From contig NZ_JAGIOI010000001.1 of the NCBI RefSeq assembly GCF_017876675.1, forward strand, positions 1,860,001 through 1,924,000: a DNA stretch of 64,000 bases. The letters run 5' to 3'. Origin of the DNA: Arthrobacter stackebrandtii. GTDB lineage: Bacteria > Actinomycetota > Actinomycetes > Actinomycetales > Micrococcaceae. The position numbers and the translations under genes are program-made. Positions 60,461-63,320 of this stretch are shown piece after piece. A model generated the notes under the pieces. That model saw nothing but the letters and a program-made list of their open reading frames with translations, was not told where the DNA came from and did not search any database. Position 1 is the first letter of the stretch, and the number at the start of each line of letters is the position of its first letter.

Positions 60461-60560
60461 GGGCCGGGCCGGGCCTCGTCGTGCAACGGTGTGAAAACTG
60501 GCACGATTGGCACATGATCATTGTCTTCCGGCCCGGCCCTTCCGACGTGGCGGTCCTGCC

Positions 60561-61787
60561 TTGAAAATCAAGACGCCGCTGGGTACGCGGGACGTCACGT
60601 TGGCGCAAGTGCTGAAGATCGGGCCGTCGCCGTTGCCATTGTGGCTGTCCTTTGTGGCGGCCGTATTTGTTACGGTCTCCGCGTTCGACGACGTTCGGCT
60701 GCTGTGGGAGGGTGACTCCGCCGGCAACATCTACTGGCTCGGGATTGCCGGGACCGTGGGGTACTGGGCCGTATGGATGGCGTTGGCTTTCGTGCCGAAG
60801 TATGTTGCCCCGGCGTTCGTGCTGATGCTTGCCATCATGCTGCCGCAGTCCTCCGTCGGCGGTCCGCTGCTGCTCGCCTTTGGCGCGGTCGCTGTGGCGT
60901 CCTACCGCGTTTCCGTACGCAGCCTGGTGGTCATGGTCGGAGGTTTCCTGACGTGGCAGATTGTGTGGGTCCTTGGGGTTGCCCACCTGGGGTCCTCCAC
61001 ATTGTGGGCCAATTTCCTTGTCATTCCGCTCCTGACTGCGCCAGGCCTCGCCATAAAGATGCTCCGGGAGAAATCTGTCCGGGCGGAGCAAACACGGCGG
61101 GAAGCCGAGATAACGGCTGCGCGCGCCGCACTTGAGGAGCGCACCGCACTGGCCCGCGAGTTGCATGACGTGGTCACACACGGGCTGACCATGATTGCCG
61201 TGCAGGCGAACCTTGGCACGCTGTCCAAGGACGGGACAGAGCAACATGAGGCGCTTGTCGAGATTGGCGGCATGGCCCGCCGTTCGCTCGATGATCTCCG
61301 CCGGCTGCTGCAGACCATGCGCGAGGAGGAACCGCGGGCGGCCGGCACTCCGGAGGCGGATTTCAGCGTCCTGACCAATCCGGCCCTCATCGATTTGTCG
61401 GAGAGCCTGGCCGAGGCGCAGCAGCGGCTCAACAACCTGGGCTTTCCCACCCGGGTCACCACGTCCGGAGACCTCGATGGCACACCCAACGGCCTGCGCT
61501 CGACAGTCCTGAGCATCTTGCAGGAGTGCACCACAAATGCCGTCAAGCATGCGGGCGTTGGCAGTGAATGCCGCATCACAGTGGCGGTGCAGGGCCAGTG
61601 GCTGGAAATGGTGATCGACAACAAGATGACTCGCGGCAAGCCGCGCCTTCCCATCTCGGGGACAGGGCTGGTGGGGCTGCGTGAGAGGGTTGCCAGGCTG
61701 GACGGGACCATCGACGCCGGGCCCGCCGACGGCTGGTGGAGCGTGCGTGCCGTGCTGCCGTTGGCCGGGCGCCACACCATCCATTAA
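60561..61787 (+). CDS. NarL-type sensor histidine kinase, multi-membrane-segment
   Basis: A protein of 408 residues. Residues 30-165 hold about five or six hydrophobic segments with hardly any extracellular loop (LPLWLSFVAAVFVTVSAF; APAFVLMLAIMLPQSS; LVVMVGGFLTWQIVWVLG), so the ligand is probably sensed in or at the membrane. A coiled linker leads to the HisKA_3 dimerisation helix with phospho-accepting His in LARELHDVVTHGLTMIAVQ. The HATPase domain has ECTTNAVKHAGVG (N box) and GTGLVGLRERVARLDG (G box). The start codon is uncertain: TTG 60561 or TTG 60507, both with weak ribosome-binding sites. It is followed by a 34-residue peptide gene and its response regulator. Confidence 0.9.
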   Translation: MKIKTPLGTRDVTLAQVLKIGPSPLPLWLSFVAAVFVTVSAFDDVRLLWEGDSAGNIYWLGIAGTVGYWAVWMALAFVPKYVAPAFVLMLAIMLPQSSVGGPLLLAFGAVAVASYRVSVRSLVVMVGGFLTWQIVWVLGVAHLGSSTLWANFLVIPLLTAPGLAIKMLREKSVRAEQTRREAEITAARAALEERTALARELHDVVTHGLTMIAVQANLGTLSKDGTEQHEALVEIGGMARRSLDDLRRLLQTMREEEPRAAGTPEADFSVLTNPALIDLSESLAEAQQRLNNLGFPTRVTTSGDLDGTPNGLRSTVLSILQECTTNAVKHAGVGSECRITVAVQGQWLEMVIDNKMTRGKPRLPISGTGLVGLRERVARLDGTIDAGPADGWWSVRAVLPLAGRHTIH

Positions 61788-61831
61788 GGCGTTTCAGGGT
61801 TGGATGGGGGCCGCAAAGCGGCAATATATGT

Positions 61832-61878
61832 TGTCCGTTTGGACAGTCTTTGCCGTTTTCGGTGTGTTTCGACTGTCC
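61832..61878. promoter_or_regulatory. Operator candidates upstream of the 34-residue peptide gene
   Basis: On the minus strand, 61832-61852 reads as a 21-base element with core CAAAGACTGTCCAAA; a second core, GACTGTCCATTTGG, lies at 61871 on the plus strand. The first also contains the palindrome GTCCGTTTGGAC (61833-61844). The same 21-base element recurs at 62903 with 19 of 21 positions identical. These are the most likely binding sites of the response regulator. Confidence 0.65.
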
Positions 61879-62021
61879 ATTTGGCTCGATTTGGCCAGAC
61901 TGGATTGTAGGTGGATGCACCAGACCGTAGCGTCAATTACGCGATGTGGTGGTTGGGGGTTCATCGAAAGCATCACACATTGGTCCACCCGCCCACGCAC
62001 CAAGGAACAAGGAGCAAGACC

Positions 62022-62126
62022 ATGAATATCACCCCAGTGTTGGTCAGCAGCCCCGCAGTCACGCAGCTCCGCAGCAAGCCCACCGGTATTTGGCCGTCGG
62101 GATCCTTCCCCACCAACGACCGCTAA
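62022..62126 (+). CDS. 34-residue peptide encoded between histidine kinase and response regulator
   Basis: A short ORF with ATG at 62022, preceded by AAGGAGC-type sequence about nine bases upstream, ending TAA at 62124. The N-terminus is Thr/Val/Ser-rich (NITPVLVSSPAVTQLRSK) and the C-terminus is distinctive: GIWPSGSFPTNDR, with one Trp and two Pro. There is no signal peptide or cysteine, so export would need a dedicated or leaderless route. It lies between a kinase with membrane-embedded sensing and its regulator, the classical place of a peptide signal precursor. No homologue is known to me, and the role is inference. Confidence 0.65.
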   Translation: MNITPVLVSSPAVTQLRSKPTGIWPSGSFPTNDR

Positions 62127-62200
62127 GACTTGCCTGTTCCGGGATGCTCGGCGCCTGCACCGCCTGGCGTCCCGGGGCAGGCATGGTGAGCTGCGTTACG

Positions 62201-62212
62201 TAGACTGTCACC
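62201..62212 (+). promoter_or_regulatory. Leaderless promoter of the response regulator gene, with partial operator core
   Basis: TAGACT, a -10 element, lies six bases before the ATG at 62213, and there is no Shine-Dalgarno, as at 28340. The promoter sequence includes GACTGTC (62203-62209), seven of the eight bases of the repeated operator core, so autoregulation is possible. Confidence 0.55.
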
Positions 62213-62881
62213 ATGAGCTCGAATGTGGCAGAAGTCCCGTCCATTGACGTAGTCATTGTTGACGATGAAAAATTTGTTCGCGGCGCCTTGCGCACGTACC
62301 TGTCCCAAGCGCCGGACGTTGCTGTCGTCGCAGAAGGTGTCAACGGTGCCGAGGCCGTAACGCTGGCACATGAGCACCAGCCCGATGTCATGATCATAGA
62401 CATCCAGATGCCTGTCATGGACGGCATCGCGGCAATCCGCCGCATCGTGGCGGAACTTCCCGAAATTCGGATTCTTGTGGTCACGGGCCACATTTCCGAC
62501 AGGTACCTCAAGGCTGCCCTCATTGCGGGTGCCAGCGGCTACGTGGTCAAGGATGCCGAACCCGAGCGCATCATCTCCGCCGTGCGCCAGGTCAACGCCG
62601 GCGACTGCCCCATCGATGCCGCTGTCACGCACCTGCTGGTTGCCGACGTCCGCAACAGCCTTCCCGGCACGGCGGTCCGGCCCGACCTTGACCTGTCTGC
62701 CCGGGAGGAAGACGTCTTGCGGCTGCTGTGCGAGGGGTTGAGCAACAGCGAAATTGCTGCCACATTGTTCCTCTCCGAGTCAACAGTTAAATATCATTTG
62801 GTCCGTTTGGGCAGGAAGTTTAACGCGCGAGACAGGCTGCAACTTGTTGTAACGGCGCTGCGCACCGGGGCTGTACTGTAG
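62213..62881 (+). CDS. NarL/LuxR-family response regulator
   Basis: A protein of 222 residues. The receiver domain has VVIVDDEKFVRGAL (acidic pocket), DVMIIDIQMPVMDGIAAIRR (phosphorylated Asp) and VKDAEPERIISA (Lys). The C-terminal LuxR-type helix-turn-helix is LSAREEDVLRLLCEGLSNSE, then AATLFLSESTVKYHLVRLGR. The length is normal. It is the partner of the histidine kinase at 60561, with the peptide gene between them. Its start is leaderless. Targets are probably the GACTGTCC-type elements upstream of both peptide genes. Confidence 0.95.
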   Translation: MSSNVAEVPSIDVVIVDDEKFVRGALRTYLSQAPDVAVVAEGVNGAEAVTLAHEHQPDVMIIDIQMPVMDGIAAIRRIVAELPEIRILVVTGHISDRYLKAALIAGASGYVVKDAEPERIISAVRQVNAGDCPIDAAVTHLLVADVRNSLPGTAVRPDLDLSAREEDVLRLLCEGLSNSEIAATLFLSESTVKYHLVRLGRKFNARDRLQLVVTALRTGAVL

Positions 62882-62902
62882 GGACTCATCAGGGCCTGCC
62901 AG

Positions 62903-62923
62903 CAAAGACTGTCCAAAAGGATA
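62903..62923 (+). promoter_or_regulatory. Operator candidate upstream of the secreted peptide gene
   Basis: The 21-base element with core CAAAGACTGTCCAAAAGG matches the one at 61832-61852 (minus strand) at 19 of 21 positions. It lies 107-127 bases upstream of the ATG at 63030 and 22 bases after the response regulator stop. It is the second main copy of the element in the window. Confidence 0.65.
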
Positions 62924-63029
62924 GGTGCAGGACCGGCTTTTAAGGTGTCGCTCCGGCCAACCCGGACGTATGCTGGGAAGCCAGCCATGCCTTGGTGATC
63001 CACATCATAACTTCTTGAAAGGCACCGCC

Positions 63030-63278
63030 ATGAAATCCCGTTTCACAAAAGCCAGTGTTGCCGCCGCCCTCGCAGCCGGCCTGATCCTCGCCCCCGGACT
63101 GTCCCCCGCCCAGGCCGCCACGTCCGATCTGGGCACTGCCGGCACCAGCATCTCAGGCACCTCGGTGAAGCCGCCGCTGTCGCTGGGCAACGGTCCCGTC
63201 AACGGCGGCGGTGGAACGGCCACCACGTACGGACTGTGGTTCGTTCCCTGTGACTGGATGGGCTTCCGCCTCTGCTAG
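63030..63278 (+). CDS. Secreted 82-residue peptide with two-cysteine C-terminal tail
   Basis: A protein of 82 residues with a clear signal peptide (KSRFTKASVAAALAAGLILA, then PGLSPAQA, cleaved before ATSDLG). The mature part is Gly/Ser/Thr-rich and unstructured (SLGNGPVNGGGGTATTYG) and ends in the striking GLWFVPCDWMGFRLC. Its two cysteines, eight residues apart, could form a disulfide loop enclosing DWMGFRL. GAAAGG precedes the ATG. The element shared with the 34-residue peptide gene lies upstream. It may be a pheromone precursor, bacteriocin or ligand of the kinase; none is proven. Confidence 0.75.
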   Translation: MKSRFTKASVAAALAAGLILAPGLSPAQAATSDLGTAGTSISGTSVKPPLSLGNGPVNGGGGTATTYGLWFVPCDWMGFRLC

Positions 63279-63289
63279 AACATTCCCTT

Positions 63290-63320
63290 GGCGCCCGGTT
63301 GCAGGCTGCCCGGGCGCCAT
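63290..63320 (+). terminator. Intrinsic terminator after the secreted peptide gene
   Basis: TGGCGCCCGG and CCGGGCGCCA form a 10-bp perfect stem with an 11-base loop, followed by TTGTTGT. It closes the kinase/peptide/regulator/peptide cluster. Confidence 0.75.

Follow-up and report, generated by a model that had tools for sequence, protein, structure and literature searches.

The window analyzed here, a stretch of 64,000 nucleotides (nt) from Arthrobacter stackebrandtii (G000:C1:1860001-1924000 of a 4.43-Mb genome), contains a four-gene system that somewhat probably encodes an autoinducing-peptide loop, with a peptide that would be exported by the Sec pathway and probably closed into a disulfide ring. 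All four open reading frames (ORFs) lie on one strand (+) in the order given in the initial annotation: a HisKA_3 sensor histidine kinase (60561..61787; identified by Pfam and predicted structure, with an uncertain TTG start), a 34-residue peptide with the C-terminal core GIWPSGSFPT (62022..62126), a NarL/LuxR-type response regulator (62213..62881; Pfam) and an 82-residue precursor with a Sec-type N-terminus (63030..63278), the likely signal precursor. Pfam matches above cut-off comprise HisKA_3 in the kinase and Response_reg and GerE in the regulator; for the two small ORFs, no family of Pfam or NCBIfam scores at its curated cut-off. A peptide-signaling circuit, as initially proposed, is still the best reading of the locus, but the roles of the genes differ from those first assigned. 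The constant partner of the kinase is not the 34-residue peptide; the evidence singles out the exported peptide, which is kept with the sensor across genera despite changing gene order. This Cys-loop peptide is the probable ligand of the kinase. The gene set, its conservation and the selection acting on it, operator-like sites at fixed spacing and the linkage of Cys-loop peptide and sensor are all directly visible in the sequence.

We predict that the exported peptide would be made as a Sec precursor from which the signal peptide is removed, and that a further cut before TYG probably frees the conserved C-terminus (TYGLWFVPCDWMGFRLC, 63225..63275, +), its likely mature part. The two cysteines (Cys74 and Cys82 in the window), with 5-7 residues between them across the loci compared, would then probably close a ring. 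The ring peptide would bind the six-helix membrane sensor, the kinase would phosphorylate the NarL-type regulator, and the regulator would bind TGTCC-N4-GGACA and activate both the exported peptide, in a positive feedback, and the 34-residue peptide. Export, cleavage, ring closure, binding, the sign of control and a role in sensing cell density are what we infer; export is suggested by our reading of the Sec-type N-terminus, and the lack of a nearby ABC exporter or protease is no obstacle because export could go by Sec. In Actinobacteria, disulfides can be formed by general oxidative folding enzymes. In a broader proposal, for which we judge the chances evenly balanced, the system belongs to an undescribed actinobacterial family of autoinducing peptides that are exported by Sec, closed by a disulfide through the general oxidative folding machinery rather than a dedicated cyclase, and perceived by a six-helix sensor on a DesK/NarL-class kinase, with lineage-specific peptide-sensor pairs and sometimes two parallel channels per genome.

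Conservation and selection within the genus

All four genes occur in the same order in 14 of 23 genomes of the genus, and the remaining nine have neither exported peptide nor kinase nor regulator, so that these three genes are all-or-none across the genus. Kinase orthologs (E < 1e-200) are found in the same 14 genomes and in no other among 395 genomes of the family, and regulator orthologs of at least 71-72% identity (two measures) in 14 of the 23, all other matches being at or below 46%. A search with the exported peptide gave matches in 15 of 38 genomes, of which 14 were counted as real; these have profile E values of 7.7e-25 or better, and other profile matches in the family lie at 4.5e-5 or worse. 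Weak matches in five of the nine genus genomes without the system (G003, G008, G015, G021 and G017) were rejected as chance, because signal-like parts of long frames were matched or stops were present; the match in G017 has 35% identity inside a 1318-residue frame. One kinase (L025, genome G004) contains N in its sequence and was omitted from the kinase alignment (A1) but included in the 14-genome comparisons.

The exported family comprises peptides of 63-83 residues with a conserved signal-like region, ending in AQA in most members (alignment A2), a spacer of variable length and the C-terminus TYG-x5-C-x7-C, in which both cysteines are invariant in all 14 genomes. The 34-residue peptide belongs to a family of 20-35 residues with a variable N-terminal half and GIWP invariant in 14/14, encoded by codons that vary synonymously; GGAG precedes its start in all 14. 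In five pairs of genomes, the ratio of nonsynonymous to synonymous substitution (dN/dS) is 0.24-0.31 for the 34-residue peptide, 0.14-0.28 for the exported peptide, 0.02-0.07 for the regulator and 0.08-0.18 for the kinase. The four genes are thus real, conserved and under purifying selection; lack of conservation of the small ORFs, or of selection on them, had been named beforehand as evidence that would count against a circuit, and both are kept in 14 genomes, with low dN/dS in the five pairs.

Linkage of the Cys-loop peptide and the sensor across genera

A profile of the sensor only (E 1e-4) matched 26 places in 24 of 390 family genomes; besides the 14 that carry the system, these belong to a second genus (nine genomes, of which two have a pair of copies) and a third (one genome). 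When 396 genomes of the order were searched, two more appeared, in other families, giving 14 distant sensor loci that span other genera and families. In every one of these, a small ORF lies 5' of the kinase and has C-x(5-7)-C close to or at its C-terminus. The loops read CSFLFLRWC, CGFLFLRWC, CSFLLLRWC, CGGWYFWC, CKLLRSC, CKLFRSC, CYYVPFWC (two loci), CRYFPQLCGGW, CRYVPQLCGGW, CKLAGWLCPK, CGWFPVFCR, CDLIPELCPPHLR and CQLYPQLCGR. The regulator was located at eight of the 14 loci, each time on the opposite strand, indicating that gene order changed while the pairing of peptide and sensor stayed.

The distant ORFs were first found with changing filters and then retested with one uniform filter, which demanded a hydrophobic N-terminus after positive charge, a ribosome site and a terminal Cys pair. 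This recovered the expected ORF at 25 of 28 loci (the failures being G278, G327b and G285; three extra matches at two loci look like chance), compared with two matches in 80 other actinobacterial HisKA_3 kinase loci. One control match, in [Pseudopropionibacterium] massiliense (L114), is an ORF just 5' of the kinase that ends CGYFLYLFCR, and we count it as a further member because the match to its kinase spans the sensor (query 23-404). The second is encoded on the reverse strand, at a large distance from its kinase. The peptide gene is therefore linked to the kinase sensor and, as described below, co-evolves with it (14 genomes; modest effect), as is expected of peptide-sensing systems.

Two genomes, G231 (L279 and L317) and G327 (L313 and L314), carry two sensor-type kinases, each with its own Cys-loop peptide, and the two sets may form parallel channels. 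At L278 (G309), a divergent regulator lies 5' and a second regulator-like ORF lies 3' of the kinase on the same strand.

Predicted promoters and operators

TGTCC-N4-GGACA, with at most one mismatch, lies 5' of the exported peptide in 13 of the 14 genomes and is centered 51-53 nt before TATGCT, the likely -10 element (62969..62974, +, in the window). We regard this palindrome as a likely operator, represented in the window by TGTCCAAAAGGATA at 62910..62923 (operators are given without strand). The 34-residue peptide has two such candidates, TGTCCGTTTGGACA at 61832..61845, a likely distal operator, and the degenerate TGTCCATTTGGCTC at 61874..61887, a likely proximal operator 42 nt after it; TAGCGT (61928..61933, +), a conserved element, is the likely -10. 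A -10 element of this promoter was recognized in 12 genomes (none in G002 and G020), of which 10 have a site with three or fewer mismatches at 89-90 nt and 11 have one at 47 nt. Exact matches to TGTCCAAANGGACA number 23; 10 of the 14 genomes that carry the system have them, the nine that lack it have none, and the reversed control has no match in 23 genomes. Among the same 23 genomes, GACTGTCCNNNNGGACAG is matched exactly only at this locus, in four of them. Perfect TCC-N4-GGA palindromes precede three of the 15 distant peptides (the 14 loci plus L114), compared with 49 of 6000 random windows.

The locus probably comprises several transcription units rather than one, because a separate promoter motif of leaderless type serves the regulator and the 34-residue peptide is followed by a strong hairpin in the window. 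TACGTAGACTG stands directly 5' of the regulator ATG in 13 of 14 genomes, with a one-base variant (TACGTAGAATG) in G002; its position directly before the ATG fits a leaderless transcript, for which TAGACT (62201..62206, +) is the likely -10. The hairpin in the gap (62124..62200, +) has a folding energy of -45.7 kcal/mol and z -4.7 in the window, where it was folded.

Sensor, co-variation and alternative roles of the peptides

As initially described, the kinase has no sizeable extracellular domain. Its AlphaFold model, built from 31 sequences of which the majority lack this sensor, places six membrane-type helices, two of them short, from residue 27 to near residue 168 and shows no large outside domain; the mean predicted local distance difference test score (pLDDT) is 77, about 62-82 in the membrane part. 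Of the solved structures, DesK is the nearest to the catalytic half in both sequence and fold, the listed matches covering the cytoplasmic part.

This resemblance favors a reading in which the exported peptide is an antimicrobial or envelope-active effector that the regulator switches on when the kinase responds to a different stimulus, for instance membrane state, as in DesK. The likely regulator sites before the peptide gene and the hydrophobic, aromatic loops would suit such an effector. We nevertheless consider it unlikely, given that peptide type and sensor stay together from genus to genus and that the peptide C-terminus co-varies with the sensor and not with the catalytic domain. Across the 14 genomes and controlling for the regulator, the last 17 residues of the exported peptide follow the sensor (r 0.36, p 0.004) and do not follow the catalytic domain (r -0.005, p 0.51), and the signal peptide shows no tie to the sensor (p 0.16). 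Among neighbors annotated at some of the loci, no gene for immunity or export was noticed either.

Synonymous divergence was compared in two pairs of genomes. Between G000 and G012, whose loops differ at three residues, the sensor reaches 0.89 and the peptide C-terminus 0.82 (13 sites), compared with 0.41 for the regulator and 0.28 for the remainder of the peptide; between G001 and G022 the values are 0.05 for the sensor and 0 for both the coil plus HisKA and the peptide C-terminus (11 sites in the latter), compared with 0.32 for the regulator. Such a pattern would arise if linked specificity segments were exchanged, although the sites are few.

Linkage and co-variation would be the same if the exported peptide bound its kinase as a feedback inhibitor or accessory subunit and did not pass between cells. 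Nothing in the present data separates the two roles; a small ring peptide, if released as is probable, would be better suited to a diffusible signal, and we hold the inhibitor or subunit role to be improbable.

Several observations weigh against an autoinducing loop built on the exported peptide. A class-wide sensor search (241 genomes) returned only the genome of the window, so either few genomes carry the family or the search lacks sensitivity. With the regulator controlled, the nine-residue loop by itself shows no significant tie to the sensor (p 0.10), and the 34-residue peptide also follows the sensor to some degree (r 0.27, p 0.02). The raised synonymous divergence between G000 and G012 is not confined to the sensor, being 0.87 in the coil plus HisKA. 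The operator is missing before the exported peptide in G006, and the G747 peptide passes the uniform filter at only 32 residues, with a doubtful signal. Finally, DesK, which the catalytic half resembles, is a membrane thermosensor kinase.

The co-variation of the 34-residue peptide with the sensor, its two operator-like sites and its C-terminal core conserved in 14/14 might point to this GIWP peptide as the signal and the exported peptide as its output. We find this very improbable: the GIWP peptide has neither a signal sequence nor an exporter, and frame scans (no profile search for it was made) showed no small GIWP ORF at the 14 distant loci, which keep the kinase and the Cys-loop peptide. 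With no signal sequence, no distant GIWP ORF and operator-like sites of its own, it is probably a regulated, genus-level product, putatively an output or intracellular modulator. That the small ORFs are untranslated, or unconnected with the kinase, is barely credible in view of protein-level selection, ribosome sites, invariant residues and linkage in several genera.

A candidate wider regulon

The 23 exact matches to TGTCCAAANGGACA comprise seven at the locus, three before a transglycosylase/LysM gene (G001, G022 and G019) and 13 elsewhere. In G000, four sites precede exported-looking products (Pfam: a phospholipase A2, an adhesin-like domain, a subtilase of family S8 and one without a family); one lies between two lyase genes in G016, one before an exported-looking ORF in G006 and one before disA in G014, and the rest are in or near other ORFs. 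An exact operator-like site lies about 2.9 kb past the exported peptide (L197, G000:C1:1926221), before an exported-looking ORF without a Pfam family. A site with at most one mismatch accompanies the S8 gene (L200, L258-L274) in four of 11 genomes with the system and none of six without it, which is only suggestive of operator control. This secreted subtilase, an S8 protein with an I9 propeptide, is a candidate for cutting the peptide precursor. Counts of the one-mismatch pattern are near those of the control in several genomes, and matches occur in G003, G005 and G008, all without the system; with the S8 gene only suggestive, a secretome regulon is not established.

The three transglycosylase/LysM sites were dropped because, by eye, the same position in the remaining genomes inspected holds a GCCC..GGGC-type hairpin whether or not the system is present. 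At L208, L209 and L223 (G001, G022 and G019), this hairpin, about 174 nt before the gene start, mimics the operator; its arms change together between genomes, from GCCC..GGGC to GTCC..GGAC. A lysM-Actino RNA match beside or just downstream of the hairpin in G022 is weak, below the Rfam gathering score, and none was found at that score.

Comparison with known systems

Peptide quorum sensing is known mainly from Firmicutes. The system shares with agr (AgrBDCA, Fsr) a precursor, membrane-only kinase and regulator encoded together and, in likelihood, an autoregulated peptide gene and a short C-terminal ring. It differs in having a Sec-type N-terminus rather than an AgrB-processed leader, two cysteines rather than a thiolactone or lactone, and a HisKA_3 kinase with a GerE regulator rather than AgrC and LytTR types; no AgrB-type gene is among the ORFs of the window segment read, AgrB not having been searched by profile. 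ComQXPA of Bacillus has a HisKA_3-class kinase and a GerE regulator (classes shared with many other systems) and a multi-helix sensor, whereas ComX-type peptides lack a signal sequence and the exported peptide has a Sec-type N-terminus and a Cys pair; no isoprenyl-transferase partner was noticed at the locus, ComQ likewise not having been a profile query. Double-glycine pheromone systems (ComCDE, Blp) also link peptide, kinase and regulator, but no double-glycine leader or ABC exporter was seen here, and the kinase and regulator classes differ. DesK/DesR, which senses membrane state and controls a desaturase, offers a similar catalytic half and a membrane-only sensor; DesK is not known to have a linked peptide, whereas every distant locus found here pairs the sensor with a peptide.

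Arthrobacter and Kocuria appear in a 2016 review of actinobacterial quorum sensing on the basis of LuxR-type domains (PMC4748050), and a second paper reports LuxR-related genes in an Arthrobacter strain (PMC9659744). No description of these peptides was found in searches of open-license papers. If the proposal is true, the system would provide a ring-type signal without a dedicated exporter or modifying enzyme, and a recognizable peptide-receptor pair with an operator motif would make peptide signaling in these bacteria directly testable.

Locus context

Downstream of the exported peptide, the terminator initially described as closing the set is a real hairpin (about 63289..63319, +; folding), yet reaches only z -2.4 against shuffled sequences and is absent from the terminator scan list. 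Upstream of the kinase, a conserved short ORF was looked for and found no support; at 60497-60562 of the window, the stop of a 16-codon ORF overlaps the TTG start, and a GGCACGATTGG-type element precedes the kinase in several genomes. A search of plasmids with the kinase gave no match at E 1e-40. The 5' neighbor of the system, a proline racemase-family gene, flanks it in all 14 genomes, and the 3' neighbor is kept in 11 of the 14 stretches examined (not seen in those of G006, G002 and G013), a conservation of flanks that marks the locus as old and chromosomal.

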